Positions 7,804 to 42,500 of a stretch of DNA of 64,000 nucleotides are shown in pieces. Where the stretch lies: the NCBI GenBank assembly GCA_036387335.1, contig DASVTZ010000217.1:1-64000 (forward strand), written 5' to 3'. Within the stretch, counting starts at the first letter, position 1, and every line of letters begins with the position of its first letter. The DNA comes from Longimicrobium sp. GTDB lineage: Bacteria > Gemmatimonadota > Gemmatimonadetes > Longimicrobiales > Longimicrobiaceae. The notes under the pieces were generated by a model. It was given only the letters and a program-made list of their open reading frames with translations. It was not told where the DNA came from and did no database searches. The translations under genes were made by a program, and so were the position numbers.

Positions 7804-8241
7804 CTACTCGGACGCGCGCTTCTCCGCCTCCGCCAGCGCGTCCCAGCCGAGCATTGCGCACTTCACGCGGCGCGGGAGCTTGGCGACGCCGGCCAGCGCC
7901 CGCATGTCGCCGAGCGCGCGGTCGCGGGCGGCCTCCTCGTTGCCGTGCATCAGGTCGCGGAAGCGGTCCGCCACGGCGTGGATCTCGTCCCACGACTTCC
8001 CCACCGCGTGCTCGCACATCATCGAGGCGGCGGCCTGCGAGATCGCGCACCCTTGCCCCGAGAAGCGCACGTCCTCCACGATCCCCTCACGCACGCGCAC
8101 GGTCAGAAAGATGTCGTCACCGCAGAGCGGGTTCCTCTCCGCCACCGCCGCGCTCGGCTCCTCCACCTCTCCCCGGTGCTTGGAGGAGCGGTAGTGCTTC
8201 AGGATCAGCTCCTGGTAGACGGATTCGAGCGGCAGGGACAT
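7804..8241 (-). CDS. sufU: SufU, zinc-dependent sulfurtransferase
   Basis: Accepts persulfide sulphur from the cysteine desulfurase SufS and passes it to the SufBCD scaffold, in the cytoplasm. The 145-residue protein has the family length and its ligand set: C40 and D42 in NPLCGDD, C65 in GQGCAIS, C128 in RVKCAMLGW. SufU differs from IscU by the insertion between the second and third cysteines, which is present here (about 95-120). It is the last gene of the suf operon, separated from sufS by a 110-bp gap filled with a family C hairpin element. Confidence 0.93.
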   Translation of the reverse strand: MSLPLESVYQELILKHYRSSKHRGEVEEPSAAVAERNPLCGDDIFLTVRVREGIVEDVRFSGQGCAISQAAASMMCEHAVGKSWDEIHAVADRFRDLMHGNEEAARDRALGDMRALAGVAKLPRRVKCAMLGWDALAEAEKRASE

Positions 8242-8249
8242 GGGACTGC

Positions 8250-8347
8250 GGGGAATGGGGAATGGGTTTTGGGGAATGGGAACGGCATGGAGCGCGGAAA
8301 ATGGGGTGGTTTTTTACCATTCCCCCATTCCCCAATCCCCATTCCCC
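8250..8347. repeat. family C short-repeat inverted element in the sufS-sufU gap
   Basis: The left arm is tandem 7-bp units of the type GGGGAAT (8250-8281). The right arm is the mirrored ATTCCCC series (8316-8347), with about 35 nt between. Transcribed, it would form a long imperfect hairpin between two operon genes. A related copy lies at 46110-46204. Confidence 0.85.
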
Positions 8348-8351
8348 TCTT

Positions 8352-9605
8352 TCACAGTCCGAACAGCTTCCGCGCCCGCCCCAGCCCGTCCATCAGCCGG
8401 TCCACGTCGTCCACCGTGTTGTACAGGTAGAACGAGGCGCGCGCGGTGGAGCCCACGCCCATGCGGCGCATCAGCGGCTGGGCGCAGTGGTGGCCGGCGC
8501 GGATGGCGATCCCCTCCGCGTCCAGGATGGTGCCCAGGTCGTGCGGGTGCACGTCGCCCAGGGTGAAGGAGATCACCCCCGAGCGCTCCGCCGGGTCGCG
8601 CGGGCCGAAGACGGTGAGGTCCGGGACGTCCGCCATCCGCTCCAGCGCGTAGGCGAGCAGCGTGCGCTCGTGGGCCAGGATGGCGTCGCGCCCGATGCCG
8701 GCCAGGTACTCCGCGGCCGCGCCGAGGGCCACCGCGCCCGCGATGTGCGGCGTCCCCGCCTCGAAGCGGTTGGGGAGGGGCGCGTAGGTGGAGTGCTCCA
8801 GCTCCACCCACTCGATCATGTCGCCGCCGCCGTGGAAGGGGGGCATCGCCTCCAGCAGCGCGCGCCGCCCCCACAGGCCGCCCATCCCCGTGGGACCGCA
8901 CATCTTGTGGCCGCTGAACGCGTAGAAGTCGCATCCCAGCGAGGGGACGTCCACCGGCAGGTGCGGCGCGGACTGGGCGCCGTCCACCAGCACGACCGCC
9001 CCCACCGAGTGGGCCCTCGCCGCGATCTCGCGCACCGGGTTGATCGTCCCCAGCGCGTTCGACACGTGGACGATGGAGACGAGCTTCGTGCGCTCCGTCA
9101 GCAGCTCGTCCAGGTTGGAGAGGTCCAGGCGCTGCTGGTCGTCGATGTCCAGGAAGCGCAGCTTCGCCCCGGTGCGCTGCGCGATGATCTGCCAGGGCAC
9201 CAGGTTGCTGTGGTGCTCCATCACGGAGAGGAGTACCTCGTCGCCGGCGCGGAGGTTGGCGAGGCCCCAGCTGTAGGCCACCAGGTTGATGGCCTCGGTG
9301 GTGCCGCGCGTCCAGATCAGCTCCGCGGGGTCCGCGATCCCAAAGAGCGCCGCCACCTTGCCGCGCGCCAGCTCGAACGCCTCCGTGGCGCGCACCGAAA
9401 GGGTGTGCACCCCGCGGTGCACGTTGGCGTTGTCGTGCTCGTAGTACGCGGCCAGCGTGTCCAGCACCGCCCGCGGCTTCTGCGTGGACGCGGCGTTGTC
9501 CAGGTACACCAGCGGATGCCCGTTCACCTCCTGCTGGAGGATCGGGAAGTCCGCGCGGATCAGCTCCGCGTTGAGCACGGCCGGCATCTCGGCGATCAGC
9601 GACAT
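8352..9605 (-). CDS. sufS: SufS, group II cysteine desulfurase
   Basis: A PLP enzyme that removes sulphur from cysteine, giving alanine and an enzyme persulfide for Fe-S assembly. The 417-residue protein contains the PLP lysine K234 in FSGHKMCGPTG, H131 in EHHSN, and the catalytic cysteine C374 in RAGHHCAQP; the short active-site loop is that of group II enzymes. I prefer the ATG at 9605, which has AGGA about 8 nt upstream, over the in-frame ATG at 9620. It belongs to the sufCBD-Rieske-sufS-sufU operon and presumably hands sulphur to SufU. Confidence 0.95.
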   Translation of the reverse strand: MSLIAEMPAVLNAELIRADFPILQQEVNGHPLVYLDNAASTQKPRAVLDTLAAYYEHDNANVHRGVHTLSVRATEAFELARGKVAALFGIADPAELIWTRGTTEAINLVAYSWGLANLRAGDEVLLSVMEHHSNLVPWQIIAQRTGAKLRFLDIDDQQRLDLSNLDELLTERTKLVSIVHVSNALGTINPVREIAARAHSVGAVVLVDGAQSAPHLPVDVPSLGCDFYAFSGHKMCGPTGMGGLWGRRALLEAMPPFHGGGDMIEWVELEHSTYAPLPNRFEAGTPHIAGAVALGAAAEYLAGIGRDAILAHERTLLAYALERMADVPDLTVFGPRDPAERSGVISFTLGDVHPHDLGTILDAEGIAIRAGHHCAQPLMRRMGVGSTARASFYLYNTVDDVDRLMDGLGRARKLFGL

Positions 9606-9633
9606 GGGTGTTCCTGCCATCCAAAGGAAAACG

Positions 9634-9706
9634 ATCTCACGCAGAGGCGCAGAGACGCAGAAGAGATCGCGGAGTTCTCTCCTGCGTCTCCGCGCCTCTG
9701 CGTGAG
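9634..9706. repeat. family A short-repeat inverted element in the Rieske-sufS gap
   Basis: The left arm TCTCACGCAGAGGCGCAGAG (from 9635) and right arm ending CGCGCCTCTGCGTGAG are mirrored around a short spacer, giving a hairpin of about 28 bp with few mismatches. It occupies most of the 117-bp gap between the Rieske gene and sufS. Confidence 0.88.
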
Positions 9707-9722
9707 GCCCATCTGTTTTCAG

Positions 9723-10040
9723 CTATTCCGGCATGTCCACGAAGACGGAGTCGTTCTCCACGCGCGTGGTGAACACGGGCACCGGGCGCACGGCGGGCGG
9801 GCACTGGGGGATGCCGGTGCGCAGGTCGAACATGGCGCCGTGCCACTCGCAGGTGATGGTGCACTCGTCCGGGTCCACCTCGCCCGGGGAGAGCGGGAAG
9901 TCGCGGTGCGAGCAGTTGTCCTGCAGCGCGTAGAACTCGTCGCCCACGCGCGCCAGGCAGACCCGCACTCCGTTCAGCTCAACGTCGATGGCCGATGCCT
10001 CCGCCACGTCATCGACGGAGGCCGCGCGCACCCACACCAC
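9723..10040 (-). CDS. Rieske-type [2Fe-2S] ferredoxin of the suf operon
   Basis: A 105-residue soluble Rieske protein with both cluster motifs: C43-x-H45 (CSH) and C64-xx-H67 (CEWH). Similar NirD-like Rieske proteins occur in suf operons of several phyla, where they may supply electrons during cluster assembly; that role is inference. It starts with GTG only 3 nt after the sufD stop, so its translation is probably coupled to sufD. No membrane segment is present, unlike respiratory Rieske subunits. Confidence 0.9.
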   Translation of the reverse strand: MVWVRAASVDDVAEASAIDVELNGVRVCLARVGDEFYALQDNCSHRDFPLSPGEVDPDECTITCEWHGAMFDLRTGIPQCPPAVRPVPVFTTRVENDSVFVDMPE

Positions 10041-10043
10041 CGG

Positions 10044-11387
10044 CTACAGCCCCCGCCGCGCGAGCTTCAGCTCCACGGCGCGCACCAGCTCGGCGCGGAC
10101 GCCTTCCAGCGGAAGCTGCTCCAGCACCTCGCCAAAGAAGCCGAACACCACCAGCCGCACCGCCTCGCTGCGCGGAATGCCGCGCGAGAGGAGGTAGAAG
10201 AGCTCCTCCTCGTCCAGCTGCCCCACCGTGGCGGCGTGCGAGCAGCGCACGTCGTCCGCCTGGATCTCCAGGTTGGGGAGCGAGTCGGCGCGGGCGCCGG
10301 TGCTCAGCAGGAGGTTGCGGTTGGTCTGGTACGCGTCGGTGCGCTGCGCCTTGGGGTGCACGCGGATCAGGCCGCGGAACACCGAGCGACCCGTGTCCTG
10401 CAGCGCCCCCTTGAAGAGCAGGTTGCTCGATGCGTGCGGCGCGATGTGGTCCTGCAGCGTCTCGTTGTCGAAGTGCTGCGTCCCCTGCGCGATGTACACG
10501 CCCAGCATGTCCACGTGCGCGCCCGGCGCCTGCAGCCTGCACTGCGCGTCCGCGCGGCTCAGGTCGCCGCCGAGGGTGGTGTAGAGCGTGGTGATCTTGG
10601 CGTCGCGCCCGGCCACCAGCCGGTCCGTGCTCAGGTGCGAGACCCCCGCCCCGAAGCGCTGCACGGACACGTACGTCACCTTGGCCCCGTCCTCCGCCAC
10701 GATCTCCGCCGCGCCCACCGAGAGCGTGGGCGACGACATGGCGTCGGAGGCGAGCTCGTCCACGATGGCGATCTCGGCGCCGGCCTCGGCCACGATCAGC
10801 AGGCGCCCGAACGCCGCGGTCCCCGCGCCGCTCAGCCAGCGGTAGAGGCGCACGGGCGTCTCCACCCGCACGTTCTTCGGCACGTACAGGAAGAAGCCGC
10901 CGCTCCAGAAGGCGTTGCTCATGGCGGCGAACTTCCCCTCCTCGGGCGTCACGGCGCTCCCCAGGTAACGCTGCACCAGCTCGGCGTGCTCGGCGGCCGC
11001 GCTCTCCAGCGACATCAGGATCACGCCCTGCGACGCGAGCTCTGGCGGCAGGTCGCGCAGCACAACGGAGGCATCCACCTGCACCGCGCGCGCGCCCTCG
11101 CCCGCCTCGGCGATCAGAGCACGCAGCGCGGCAGGCAGCGCGTCGACCGTGGCGGGGGCGGCCTCGTCGGCGAAGGAGAAGGCATCCAGGCGCAGCATCC
11201 GCCCGATGTCGGTGTAGCGCCACTCCTCGGCTTCGGTGGTGGGCATGGGCGTTTCGGCGAAGACGCCGTGCGCCCGCTGCCGTGCCAGGCGCAGCCACTC
11301 CGCCTCCACCTTGCGCGCGGAAAGGATCTCCACCTGGTCGCGCGTGAAGACGCCGAGCGATTCGGCGGCGACAGATGTATTGGTCAC
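10044..11387 (-). CDS. sufD: SufD, Fe-S cluster scaffold subunit
   Basis: Partner of SufB in the SufBC2D scaffold; SufD is needed for iron entry and complex assembly. The 447-residue protein shows the SufD core (HFDNETLQDHIAPHASSNLLFKGALQDTGRSVFRGLI in several shorter blocks), the C-terminal HAATVGQLDEEELFYLLSRG and the RLVVFGFF segment. The start is taken as GTG at 11387; upstream in-frame sequence is the family B repeat and cannot be genuine coding. It lies in the suf operon between sufB and the Rieske gene. The ribosome-binding site is weak, and the repeat hairpin lies directly upstream of it. Confidence 0.93.
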   Translation of the reverse strand: MTNTSVAAESLGVFTRDQVEILSARKVEAEWLRLARQRAHGVFAETPMPTTEAEEWRYTDIGRMLRLDAFSFADEAAPATVDALPAALRALIAEAGEGARAVQVDASVVLRDLPPELASQGVILMSLESAAAEHAELVQRYLGSAVTPEEGKFAAMSNAFWSGGFFLYVPKNVRVETPVRLYRWLSGAGTAAFGRLLIVAEAGAEIAIVDELASDAMSSPTLSVGAAEIVAEDGAKVTYVSVQRFGAGVSHLSTDRLVAGRDAKITTLYTTLGGDLSRADAQCRLQAPGAHVDMLGVYIAQGTQHFDNETLQDHIAPHASSNLLFKGALQDTGRSVFRGLIRVHPKAQRTDAYQTNRNLLLSTGARADSLPNLEIQADDVRCSHAATVGQLDEEELFYLLSRGIPRSEAVRLVVFGFFGEVLEQLPLEGVRAELVRAVELKLARRGL

Positions 11388-11406
11388 GATGTCCAGGTCG
11401 GTAGAA

Positions 11407-11514
11407 AAGTGCGTTAGTGCGTAAGTGCGTGAGTGCGTTCGATGCCGGTGGGTGAGGCGGGAAGTGCGTGAGCGCGGGGTTTTTCCGCACTCACGCACTA
11501 ACGCACTCACGCAC
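11407..11514. repeat. family B short-repeat inverted element in the sufB-sufD gap
   Basis: The left arm has four 8-bp units of the type AGTGCGTT (11407-11439). The right arm has the mirrored CGCACTCA/CGCACTAA series (11486-11514), with about 46 nt between. It fills nearly the whole 133-bp gap upstream of sufD. Confidence 0.88.
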
Positions 11515-11520
11515 CGCGGT

Positions 11521-12930
11521 TCACCCTACGCTCCCTTCCATCTCCAGCTCGATCAGCCGGTTCAGCTCCACCGCGTACTCCAGCGGAAGCTCCTTGGCGA
11601 TCGGCTCGATGAACCCGCGCACCACCATGGTGGCCGCCTCGTCTTCGCTGAGGCCGCGGCTCATGAGGTAGAAGAGCTGCTCGTCGCCGATCTTGCTGAC
11701 CGTGGCCTCGTGGCCGATCTGCGAGGTCGGGTCGTTGATCTCGATGTACGGATAGGTGTCCGTACGTGCCTCCTCGTCCAGCAGGAGGGCGTCGCACTCC
11801 ACGTTGCTGCGCGCGTGGTGGGCGCCCTCTTCCACCTTGAGCAGCCCGCGGTACGACGACCGCCCCGAGCCGCGCGAGATGCTCTTGCTGACGATGCGGC
11901 TGCTGGTGTGCGGCGCGTTGTGCACCACCTTGCCGCCCGCATCCTGGTGCTGGCCCGGCCCCGCGTACGCGATGGAGAGGATCTCGCCGCGCGCGCCCTC
12001 GCCGTTCAGGTAGCACGACGGGTACTTCATGGTCAGCTTGCTGCCCAGGTTGCCGTCCACCCACTCCATGGTGGCGTCACGCCCCACGATGGCGCGCTGC
12101 GTCACCAGGTTGTAGACGTTGTGCGACCAGTTCTGGATGGTGGTGTAGCGGCAGCGCGCGCCATCCTTGACGATGATCTCGATGACGCCCGAGTGGAACG
12201 AGTCCTGGGCGTACGTGGGGGCGGTGCAGCCCTCGATGTACTGGATCTGGGCGCCCTCTTCCACGATGATCATCGTGCGCTCGAACTGCCCCATGGCCTC
12301 CGCGTTGATGCGGAAGTAGGCCTGGAGCGGCATGTCGAGCTTCACCCCCTTGGGGATGTACACGAACGACCCGCCGGACCACACCGCCGTGTTGACCGCG
12401 GCGAACAGGTTGTCGCGGAAGGGCACCACGGTGCCGAAGTACTGGCGCACGATGTCTTCGTGGTCGCGCAGCCCGTCGTCCATCCCCTTGAAGATGACGC
12501 CGGCGTCCTCCCACTCCTTCTTGAGCGAGTGGTACACCACCTCGCTCTCGTACTGGGCGCCGACGCCGGCCAGGATGCGGCGCTCCTGGTCCGGAATCCC
12601 CAGGCGCTCAAATGTGTTCTTGATCCCCTCCGGCACCTCGTCCCACGTGCGCCCCGTCTTTTCGCTGGGGCGGATGTAGAAGTAGATGTCTTCGAAGTTC
12701 AGCCCGCTCAGGTCGCCGCCCCAGGTGGGCCAGGGCCGCTTGAGCGCGTGCTTCAGCGCCTTGAGCCGCACGTCCAGCATCCACTGCGGCTCGTTCTTCT
12801 GCCCGCTGATCTCCCGGACGATGTCCTCGTCCAGGCCCTTGCGGCTCTTGAAGATGTAGTTCTCTTCGTCGCGGAACCCGTACTTGTACTCGTCCAGGTT
12901 CAGTGCGGCGACGCTTTCGTTAACGGGCAT
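11521..12930 (-). CDS. sufB: SufB, Fe-S cluster scaffold subunit
   Basis: Core scaffold protein on which the nascent Fe-S cluster is built, in a complex with SufC and SufD. The 469-residue protein is highly conserved over its full length. Recognisable blocks are [18 protein letters not shown] near the N-terminus, [43 protein letters not shown] with the conserved cysteine, and [20 protein letters not shown] near the C-terminus. It is the second gene of the suf operon. Repeat-hairpin gaps lie on both sides, so it is translated independently of its neighbours. Confidence 0.96.
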
Positions 12931-12956
12931 CGGTGTGCCTCCTCAGGATGGAACCA

Positions 12957-13034
12957 AAGTGCGTTAGTGCGTCAGTGCGTCAGTGCGTTTGAAGCGCCCT
13001 TCCAAGCGCACTCACGCACTAACGCACTAACGCA
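12957..13034. repeat. family B short-repeat inverted element in the sufC-sufB gap
   Basis: The left arm AAGTGCGTTAGTGCGTCAG (from 12957) and a right arm of CGCACTCACGCACTAACG units (13006-13034) are mirrored around a 17-nt spacer. It lies 26 bp before the sufB start codon on the transcribed strand. Confidence 0.88.
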
Positions 13035-13042
13035 CCTTCCCC

Positions 13043-13807
<765 letters not shown>

Positions 13808-14072: not shown

Positions 14073-14110
14073 AAGAGAGGGGGGAGCCGCGGTGGGCTCC
14101 CCCCTCTTTT
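14073..14110. terminator. rho-independent-type hairpin
   Basis: A perfect 12-bp GC stem (14077-14088 with 14095-14106) is extended by A-T pairs and followed on the plus strand by TTTTTT. It stands 25 bp past the stop of the minus-strand gene at 14135, and its minus-strand reading has a partial U-rich tail, so it probably ends that gene. Confidence 0.75.
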
Positions 14111-24524: not shown

Positions 24525-25292
24525 ATGGTCAGCATGGGCCTGCAGCTGCTGGTGACGGCGCTGCTCCTCTCGTTCGGCGTGCTCTCGCTGGTGATCGCCG
24601 GGCGGGCGGCCTTCCAGAAGCCGTTCCACCAGGTGTTCTGGAAGCTGGCAGGCGGCGCGTTCGTCACGCACGGCACGCTGCAGGCGACGCAGAACCTGTG
24701 GGGATCGCTGGCCATGGCCGCGGGCATGTCATCCGCGACCATGGCCACCTACCTGCGCTACGTGCCCGCGTTCAACCACAGCCGCACCTTTCTGTGGCTG
24801 GCGTTCAGCGGAGTCGCGGTGTGGATGGCGCGGCGGGGTACGCTTCCGGGGCCGCGCGCGTGGGGTGGCATCGTGGTGGCGCTGGCCTGCGGGCTGCTGG
24901 TGGGAGCGCTGCTCGGCTACCACGAGGGCTCCATCCTGGCCAGCACGCACTACACGCGGGTGGCGCTGCTGGACGCGCTCGAGCTGGTGATCCTCCTGGT
25001 GGTGCTGTTCGTCGCCCTCGTGAGCGGGCGCGTGGACCGGCACCTGTGGGGCGCGCTCGCGGTGTTCGCCACCATGGTCGCGCTCAACATCGTGTGGTAC
25101 GCGGCGATGAGCATGATAGACGACAAGCGCGTCTGGACGCCGGCTCCGTGGATGATGAGCGCGTACCGTGTCGTCCCCACCTCCGTGATGGTCGCCATCG
25201 CCGTGCGGCGGCTGCAGCTGGCCAGGCGCGGGGTCAAGGTGCCCAGCCTGCTGGATCGCGGCTCGTCGGGAGCGCCCCTCCTGGCGGGGTGA
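24525..25292 (+). CDS. seven-helix integral membrane protein, unknown function
   Basis: A 255-residue protein with about seven hydrophobic segments (roughly 5-25, 38-62, 86-100, 108-126, 138-160, 168-188, 203-222) and a positively charged C-terminal tail. Conserved-looking polar residues inside helices include HGTLQATQN, HYTR and NIVWYAAM. No transporter or enzyme family is recognisable to me. It follows the Gly-run gene by 40 bp and precedes a family A repeat hairpin that probably ends the transcript. Confidence 0.65.
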   Translation: MVSMGLQLLVTALLLSFGVLSLVIAGRAAFQKPFHQVFWKLAGGAFVTHGTLQATQNLWGSLAMAAGMSSATMATYLRYVPAFNHSRTFLWLAFSGVAVWMARRGTLPGPRAWGGIVVALACGLLVGALLGYHEGSILASTHYTRVALLDALELVILLVVLFVALVSGRVDRHLWGALAVFATMVALNIVWYAAMSMIDDKRVWTPAPWMMSAYRVVPTSVMVAIAVRRLQLARRGVKVPSLLDRGSSGAPLLAG

Positions 25293-25310
25293 GAGAGACG
25301 CAACTGCATG

Positions 25311-25397
25311 GCTCACACAGAGACACAGAGGCCACAGAGAGAACCGCAAAAAGGTTTTCTCTGTGGCTTTTCCGTTCCCTCTGTGCCCTCTGTGTGA
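25311..25397. repeat. family A short-repeat inverted element, CACAGAG subtype
   Basis: The left arm GCTCACACAGAGACACAGAG (from 25311) and a right arm ending CCCTCTGTGTGATG are mirrored, with inner complement AGAGAACC/GGTTTTCTCT. TTTTC follows on the plus strand, so it may also work as a terminator. It lies between convergent genes. Confidence 0.87.
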
Positions 25398-25410
25398 TGC
25401 TTTTCGCCGG

Positions 25411-26133: not shown

Positions 26134-27053
26134 CGCGCCACTCCGCGCACGCGCTCTTCCAGGCGCAGCCGCTGCGGCGCCACCGCGCGCACCACCACCC
26201 CGCGCGCCAGCAGTGCCGCCAGCCGCTCGCTGATCTCGCGAGGCGAGGCGGGGTCCACGCGAAAGGCCCATGGCGCGCCCTCCTCCTCCAGCGCGCCGGG
26301 AAAGACCTCGTGCACCGCCTTCACCGCGCCCGGGGTGTCTTCCACCTCCAGCCGGTAGGGCGGGTTGATGCCCTCGGCGGCGCGCAGGTCCAGCAGCTCG
26401 CGCACGCGCCCGCTCTCCAGCACGGCCACGAGGTCGGCGGTGCGCTCCAGCTCGTCCAGGTTGTGCGACGCGATCAGCAGGGTGCGCGCGGGGTCTTCGG
26501 CGCGCCACTCGGCCAGCACGCTGCGCAGCCGCGAGATCCACTCCGGGTCCAGCCCGCTGGTGGGCTCGTCCAGCACCATCACGCCGCGCGGGGCGAGGAG
26601 TGCCTGTGCCATCGCCAGGCGCTGCAGGTTGCCCTTGGACAGGTAGCCCACCCTTCGATTCGCCACCGCCGCGATCTCCATCCGCTCCATCACCTCGTCC
26701 ACGCGGGCGCGGGCGTGGTCCACCTCGGCGAGGGCGGCGTAGGCGTCCAGCGCGCCGCGCGTGGTCCACGACGGGGGGATCGCCACCAGCTCGGAGACGT
26801 AGGCCACGCCGTGCTTCTCCACGTAGCCGCGCGGCGCCATCCCGTGCACCTCCACCCGGCCGCGGGTGGGGCGGATGTAGCCGAGGAGGAGGCGGATCAG
26901 CGTGCTCTTGCCGGCGCCGTTGGGACCCACGATTCCCAGCGCGGTGCCGGGGGGCACGTCCAGCGTCACGCCGTCCAGGGCGCGCACGGCGCCGCCGCGC
27001 GCGCGCGCCAGCGGCCCGGCGAATTCCTTTACCACGTCGGTGAAGCGGATCAT
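26130..27053 (-). CDS. ABC transporter ATP-binding protein
   Basis: A 307-residue ATPase with Walker A VGPNGAGKST (about 44-53), signature YLSKGNLQR (a KGNLQR variant of LSGGQ), Walker B MVLDEPTSGLDP and H-loop ASHNLDE. The C-terminal ~90 residues form the extra domain seen in CcmA/ABC-2 exporters. The start at 27053 is chosen before the conserved MIRFTDVVKEF; sequence further upstream overlaps the divergent PAP2 gene region. It forms a two-gene operon with the permease downstream. Confidence 0.9.
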   Translation of the reverse strand: MIRFTDVVKEFAGPLARARGGAVRALDGVTLDVPPGTALGIVGPNGAGKSTLIRLLLGYIRPTRGRVEVHGMAPRGYVEKHGVAYVSELVAIPPSWTTRGALDAYAALAEVDHARARVDEVMERMEIAAVANRRVGYLSKGNLQRLAMAQALLAPRGVMVLDEPTSGLDPEWISRLRSVLAEWRAEDPARTLLIASHNLDELERTADLVAVLESGRVRELLDLRAAEGINPPYRLEVEDTPGAVKAVHEVFPGALEEEGAPWAFRVDPASPREISERLAALLARGVVVRAVAPQRLRLEERVRGVAR

Positions 27054-42327: not shown

Positions 42328-42500
42328 TCTCACGCGGAGACGCGGAGGCGCGGAGTAAACAGCAAAAGCCTCACACAGAGAACACAGAGGGAACTACAAG
42401 CCAGAGAGGAGGCCTTTATCTGTTCTCTCTGTGTCTCTGTGTCTCTGTGTGAGCCATGTAGTTGCAGTTCTCTCTGCGTCTCCGCGCCTCCGCGTGAGAC
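42328..42500. repeat. nested family A elements (CACAGAG inside GCGGAG)
   Basis: The outer arms are TCTCACGCGGAGACGCGGAG (42328 on) and CTCCGCGCCTCCGCGTGAGA (42480-42499). Inside lies a second complete inverted element of the CACAGAG subtype, with arms CCTCACACAGAGAACACAGA (42369 on) and a right arm ending CTGTGTCTCTGTGTGAGCC (42455). One element therefore appears to have landed inside another. Confidence 0.9.

Follow-up and report, generated by a model that had tools for sequence, protein, structure and literature searches.

Inverted tandem-unit hairpins in the suf operon of Longimicrobium: probable copies of dispersed repeat families lodged behind stop codons

We analyzed a 64,000-nt stretch of a Longimicrobium sp. 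genome (contig DASVTZ010000217.1, positions 1 to 64,000, hereafter the window; genome G000, 5.82 Mb in 265 contigs), in which the six-gene suf operon carries a long hairpin in each of its four large intergenic gaps. These hairpins are probably copies of inverted tandem-unit repeat families found throughout the genome, which spread at the DNA level and persist at the places where they do least harm. Dispersal, a position rule, empty sites, exchange at the same slot, nesting and strand symmetry were all observed directly; because of the dispersal, the empty sites, the same-site swaps and the nesting we favor repeated insertion behind stop codons.

Elements of ∼60-110 bp (more where the loop contains other elements) would spread through the chromosome as strand-symmetric DNA-level elements, presumably by insertion. 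They would survive where least harmful, usually within ∼20 nt after a stop codon and with the next ribosome-binding region spared; purifying selection may create this position rule. In a given slot one family could give way to another, partly by way of a new hairpin inserted into the old loop. As the transcripts should form very strong hairpins, protection of upstream mRNA is a likely side effect, by analogy with malE, and suf may exploit it; such effects on mRNA decay are likely in general and possibly selected at the sufBCD junctions. In close relatives the same gap is either empty or filled with sequences that share a shape but are otherwise unrelated, which offers a natural experiment on parasites versus operon parts.

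Four hairpins and their families

The operon lies on the minus strand in the order sufC (13043..13807; ABC ATPase, Pfam PF00005), sufB (11521..12930), sufD (10044..11387), Rieske [2Fe-2S] protein gene (9723..10040; PF00355), sufS (8352..9605, or to 9620 with a longer start; cysteine desulfurase, aminotransferase class V, PF00266, named from the operon context) and sufU (7804..8241; NifU_N, PF01592). Both sufB and sufD match PF01458/PF19295; which is which we take from their position and the presumed gene order. Among named records, the closest to this SufD come from a Longimicrobium MAG (95%) and further Gemmatimonadota MAGs. Gene starts came from a codon-score caller and stop codons directly from the sequence. 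In operon order the gaps measure 112, 133, 3, 117 and 110 bp, the Rieske-sufS gap being 102 bp if the longer sufS start is used. Upstream of sufC (14076-14107, minus strand) there is a terminator-like 13-pair stem and, behind it, a moderate T tail.

Most of each large gap (4/4) is an inverted repeat, the arms of which are arrays of 7-8-nt units. Array detection and RNA folding placed four hairpins, all on the minus strand. Two belong to family B: one in the sufC-sufB gap (∼12956..13038; inverted AGTGCGTN octamer arrays with period 8; gap fold -68.8 kcal/mol, z -8.9), the other in the sufB-sufD gap (∼11406..11517; an extra degenerate unit block in the loop; -63.4 kcal/mol, z -8.4). The Rieske-sufS gap holds a hairpin of family A (9636..9706; CGCAGAG-type units; -71.9 kcal/mol, z -8.3) and the sufS-sufU gap one of family C (∼8250..8347; GGGGAAY heptamers with period 7; -53.8 kcal/mol, z -4.2). 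For every large gap 0 of 200 shuffles were as stable as the native fold; chance is ruled out. Folding and shuffles thus bore out the first-pass annotation, which had seen a tandem-unit hairpin in every large suf gap and only 3 nt between sufD and the Rieske gene. Its mention of three unrelated families is correct for G000 but describes a snapshot rather than a fixed trait, since other units occupy the same gaps in congeners.

The families are not peculiar to suf. We searched a 454-kb G000 sample (the window and further contig pieces) with an array detector; the mirror-copy control was run on this sample only. Of the 34 hairpins found at the strict setting (score ≥13, units of G and C alone excluded), 22 occupied codirectional and 7 convergent gaps, whereas divergent gaps held 0; of the remaining five, 4 fell in coding sequence and 1 at an edge. 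The mirror control gave 4 (3 coding, 1 convergent), so that outside genes there were 29 real versus 1 mirror hairpin; the 4 coding hairpins are most likely artefacts. The loosest setting gave 45 versus 22 mirror hairpins, and 8 versus 7 in convergent gaps, where it is therefore unclean. An earlier periodicity test on gapped self-alignments (23 hairpins, Fisher p 0.06) had missed most hairpins because the two arms merged as one; it was discarded and superseded by the array detector.

Families seen in the sample include AGTGCGTN, AGTGCCN/AGTGCTN/AGTCCTN, CACAGAG/CGCGGAG/CGCAAAG types and GGGGAAY; families A and B are dispersed across the genome, and family C is rarer in the sample. Three successive AGTGCGTN units gave 643 exact matches in G000 and were present in all ten genomes of the genus (G000-G009; 2 to 643 matches), with 0-4 matches in 14 other genomes. 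Triple AGTSCYN units gave 403 matches in G000 and occurred in 9/10 genus genomes (40 to 1323; none in G002) and in 0/14 others; the reversed pattern gave 0 to 24 per genome. Overlapping matches within one array were counted separately in these numbers. The reversed control for AGTGCGTN was set aside, since true variants of the unit look like the reversed pattern and contaminate its counts. By these matches, the two tested families are wholly or almost wholly restricted to the genus.

The same kind of hairpin also adjoins genes unrelated to suf. An A-type element that lies between convergent genes (window about 25291-25410) recurs at dozens of dispersed places in G006, many of the copies being 85-94% identical; the G006 place orthologous to the window element holds a plain GC-rich hairpin.

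Placement, turnover and nesting

Position was studied over 1.59 Mb drawn from six genomes of the genus, the window included, in gaps no shorter than 30 bp. Hairpins filled 62/609 codirectional, 18/163 convergent and 4/185 divergent gaps (non-divergent 80/772 versus divergent, Fisher p 1.3e-4); another 14 were located inside genes, at edges or spanning gaps. Where the gap was codirectional and at most 250 bp long, the median distance was 7-8 nt from the upstream stop codon to the hairpin and 34 nt from the hairpin to the next start, and 38 of 42 hairpins (one counted twice) were closer to the upstream stop. The 110-133-bp suf gaps therefore consist of a brief spacer, then the hairpin, then the ribosome-binding region.

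To follow single slots, flanks of the 34 G000 hairpins were mapped onto 891 kb of G006; 17 mapped and, with the coding artefact at 26725 dropped, 16 remained. Eight of these sites retain the family (two with altered unit variants, one eroded), four have a hairpin built from a different unit (sufC|sufB, sufB|sufD, C30:11965 and, within the heptamer group, C26:41074), one has another inverted repeat and three have no hairpin. At sufB|sufD and C30:11965 the hairpin differs and both flanks are largely kept; at sufC|sufB the stretch ahead of the sufB start differs as well. Reverse mapping of 46 G006 hairpins (14 mapped, untallied) added two sites with unlike contents, C57:9917 and C57:28792. As an example of an empty site, the accA-ricT gap is 197 bp in G000, whereas in G006 and G004 the matching flanks enclose only 46 bp.

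The tetranucleotide GGAA adjoins the empty sites at accA and pilT, and it was found at 30/160 hairpin ends versus 14.4 in shuffled sequences; the family itself ends with it too (GGAAGTGCG). This arrangement resembles the rule of IS200/IS605-type elements; the resemblance is ambiguous, GGAA being the family's own end.

Hairpins also lie within hairpins: B hairpins with large loops surround other palindromes concentrically. The commonest guest seen, the D element, is ∼200 bp long, with ends TTGTCATCCTGAG/CTCAGGATGACAA and an inner GAAGGATCTA..TAGATCCTTC pair (loci L152-L181 of G000). Its end TTGTCATCCTGAG occurs 254 times in the G000 genome at no more than one mismatch (reversed control, 0). D was found within tandem-unit arms in 7/8 cases in the G000 sample and 1/7 in G006, compared with 16/602 control stretches. 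Among 30 G000 D loci, some of which overlap the sample, B arms (alignment score ≥13) surrounded 9 of the 17 different D elements that had both ends. In family A, a hairpin with CGCGGAG arms encloses one with CACAGAG arms at window 42328-42499 and at C26:42538; the place in G006 to which the window composite maps has no hairpin. Insertion into a loop and subsequent loss of the older arms may be one route by which a slot changes its family.

Exchange and copying bear on the idea that the structures are self-made, i.e. that replication slippage in the short units and template switching across a hairpin build and homogenize its arms locally, without any mobile element. Both arms do share their unit, the hairpins are strand-symmetric, and a slippage-like change of unit number is seen at C26:48943 compared with G006. 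However, identical, genus-specific units occur at many places per genome, a change from octamers to heptamers has affected both arms with the flanks kept, and the whole A element at window 25.3 kb is copied at dozens of G006 places at 85-94% identity. For family A, unlinked copies sharing identical loops, which would speak against such an origin, are seen in part. We consider an origin in place very improbable.

Persistence around sufB and the RNA level

For a comparison of the suf gaps, loci of 19 relatives were read, and assembled gaps of 30 to 400 nt were folded. At sufC|sufB a unit array was seen by eye in 10/10 genus genomes and by the detector in 8/10 (not G004, G001); the fold had z -2.6 or lower in 9/10, the remaining genome, G004, having mismatched arms and z 0.6. 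Units assigned by eye were AGTGCGTN in G000, G009, G007 and G002, AGTGCTA in G006 (mixed in G004), AGTGCCN in G005, G003 and G008, and AGTCCTT-like in G001. In 10/10 genomes the unit class at this gap (octamer or heptamer) was the commoner class of the same genome, the classes being eye-assigned and the count uncorrected for kinship. Outside the genus 0/10 genomes had z below -3 at sufC|sufB, the value in G011 being -2.8. At sufB|sufD z was -3.5 to -9.0 in 8/9 genus genomes (7/9 by detector), with units of AGTGCGTN, AGTGCCN, AGTCCTN or GGGGAAY-like type and an AGTACC mix in G007; the exceptions were G002, with a gap of 2 nt, and the unassembled gap of G004. Outside the genus 3/7 folded sufB|sufD gaps had z below -3, one of them in G016.

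Two genomes of other genera in the same family have other units: ATTACGA in the sufB-sufD gap of G016 (L120) and TATCAGT-like in the sufC-sufB gap of G011 (L127). In another genome of the family a SufB-like match (G013:C77) is interrupted by in-frame TGA codons, which could represent a pseudogene, a sequencing error or recoding.

The other two gaps vary more. At Rieske|sufS, G000 and G006 carry A hairpins, G004 has A-type arrays and G005 half of one; in G003 a different strong hairpin (z -7.3) occupies the gap. Within the genus, family C at sufS|sufU was found in G000, G006 and G004 alone; in G005 this gap (8 bp by tblastn edges) has none. Thus, both junctions around sufB persist and the other two do not. 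At three comparison sites the detector found hairpins in 2/10 genus genomes (upstream of gyrB; by eye G006 and G009 show arrays or remnants), in 1/9 (accA-ricT) and in 1/8 (pilT-pilC; by eye arrays in six more, some with no clear partner, and G006 empty). By detector the junctions around sufB outlast these sites; by eye pilT-pilC approaches them. The comparison with relatives proposed in the first-pass annotation therefore came out divided: sufC|sufB and sufB|sufD are filled genus-wide, above the three other sites by detector, while Rieske|sufS and sufS|sufU are not persistent.

Several observations weigh against spread and least-harm persistence as the whole account. The persistence of sufC|sufB and sufB|sufD across the genus exceeds what neutral slots would easily give. 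So does the filling of suf, where 4/4 gaps of 80-160 bp are occupied versus 6/48 other codirectional gaps of this size in the G000 sample; at a rate of 0.125 the chance of 4/4 is 2.4e-4, uncorrected for suf having been chosen by eye. Suf is not unique in this, since an operon with a gene that we presume to be PaaA-like also has two consecutive filled gaps (C26:40639, C26:41070). Nesting is strong in G000 and not in G006. No target duplication was seen by eye at the empty sites of accA and pilT. A search of the genome for PF01797, the only transposase family searched, gave two matches, and no B or C hairpins flank either of them over a distance of 1.5 kb; beside one match an A-type hairpin lies ∼1.3 kb away on one side, and the 1.5-kb surroundings of the other contain no tandem-unit hairpin. 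Finally, T is enriched behind the hairpins (3.23 per 10 nt after 52 hairpins versus 1.42 in 398 gaps), as would fit terminators; family B's own CTTCC end may account for it.

One of the two PF01797 matches (L031 1501-1839) carries an in-frame TAG.

Were the pairing kept for the sake of the transcript, G-U pairs would be expected to favor the transcribed strand. Among 53 codirectional hairpins of up to 220 bp we saw no such preference: the sense strand gave the better fold in 27 and the antisense strand in 26 (p 0.36), with 121 versus 122 G-U pairs. Of the suf gaps of the genus, 12/28 were better as sense (p 0.85). A regulatory role at the RNA level is unsupported on this account. The symmetry speaks for making and spread at the DNA level; it is compatible with any strong hairpin being useful at these places.

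This result counts against the strongest competitor, according to which the hairpins behind sufC and sufB are selected RNA elements that shield upstream mRNA from 3′ exonucleases and so yield SufC, SufB and SufD in unequal amounts, the units being free to drift or swap as structure alone matters. Extracts of a study of E. coli operons describe differential decay with protective 3′ structures as common (PMC5927463), a precedent for such a role. The low z at sufC|sufB (-2.6 or lower in 9/10 genus genomes) and sufB|sufD (-3.5 or lower in 8/9), the occupation of 4/4 suf gaps versus 6/48, and the preservation of structure while the unit changes argue for it as well. Against it stand the lack of transcribed-strand preference in either set, the 0/10 non-genus genomes with z below -3 at sufC|sufB, the absence of the sufS|sufU hairpin from G005 and the presence of the same hairpin kind beside unrelated genes. 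We regard selected RNA elements as a possible but rather unlikely explanation. The first-pass annotation had left two readings side by side. Repeated insertion at tolerated sites has gained from the dispersal, empty sites, swaps, nesting and stop-codon position, and selection on expression has lost through the missing strand preference and through a sufS|sufU hairpin confined to three genomes.

A combined scheme can be formulated as well: a slot would inherit ‘a hairpin’ and not a sequence, with unit families displacing one another by loop insertion and outliving the resident arms (tip-targeted palindrome exchange by an undescribed mover), and with selection maintaining the hairpins that the SufBCD genes have behind sufC and sufB. 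We find it doubtful.

The T-rich tail of part of the hairpins (the mean of 3.23 T per 10 nt given above) raises the question of intrinsic or bidirectional transcription terminators, leaky within operons. The filling of convergent gaps (18/163) would agree with such a function, as would the plain GC-rich hairpin that replaces, in G006, the A hairpin at window 25.3 kb. However, codirectional gaps make up 62 of the 84 filled gaps, the sufS-sufU hairpin has no T tail, and a terminator scan of the suf region gave three sites versus a shuffled mean of 2.4, two of the three being 5-bp stems inside family A. Termination as the general function is improbable.

Relation to known repeat systems

A search of the hairpins against Rfam gave no match at gathering score; 23 matches with E <1 comprised 22 microRNA models and the PrrB_RsmZ small RNA. 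In the open-licence literature we found no paper on such elements in Gemmatimonadota or in suf operons. Tandem heptamers in intergenic DNA are known in cyanobacteria as STRR heptamers, which we set beside the Longimicrobium hairpins by description only.

The closest published counterpart that we found is the set of inverted GGGAATC heptamer arrays of Xanthomonas (70 and 75 inverted pairs in two genomes), also present in Nostoc (Rehm et al. 2015, PMC4692102). As described in extracts of that paper, these arrays are intergenic, under-represented between divergent open reading frames and often within 50 bp of a stop codon; they thus resemble the Longimicrobium hairpins in unit length, inversion, intergenic location, stop-codon proximity and rarity in divergent gaps. 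Family C (GGGGAAY) is near GGGAATC (GGGANTN), whereas families A and B (8-nt units) and AGTSCYN are not. The same extracts speak of one unit type and of G-quadruplexes, whereas in Longimicrobium there are several unit families per genome, unit differences at the same slot, and nesting. Relative to what they describe, the several families per genome, the same-slot unit exchange and the nesting are new here; short-unit inverted arrays like those of Xanthomonas occur in one Gemmatimonadota genus as several families whose shares vary between genomes. The TAACTGA repeats of Beggiatoaceae are intergenic heptamer arrays as well (169 sets, one indirect repeat; extracts of PMC4679880); as far as these extracts go, they are direct, whereas the Longimicrobium arrays are inverted pairs.

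Repetitive extragenic palindromic (REP) sequences and the related BIME and REPIN elements are described, in extracts of three papers (PMC3733652, PMC2817692, PMC3116915), as dispersed palindromes of codirectional and convergent gaps, downstream of coding regions, with several families per genome; mobilization of REPs by RAYT transposases has been proposed. The Longimicrobium hairpins are REP-like in being extragenic and between codirectional or convergent genes. REPs are 20-40 bp long, whereas the arms here are arrays of tandem 7-8-mers. The tags GTAG and CGTC were found at 9 and 3 of 160 hairpin ends versus 9.3 and 5.4 in shuffled sequences, i.e. with no enrichment. We rejected membership in the REP/RAYT system because there was no tag enrichment and no Y1 transposase (PF01797) gene flanked by the families. 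In their inverted-repeat ends and in the empty sites of relatives (3/16 mapped sites with no hairpin in G006) the elements resemble miniature inverted-repeat transposable elements.

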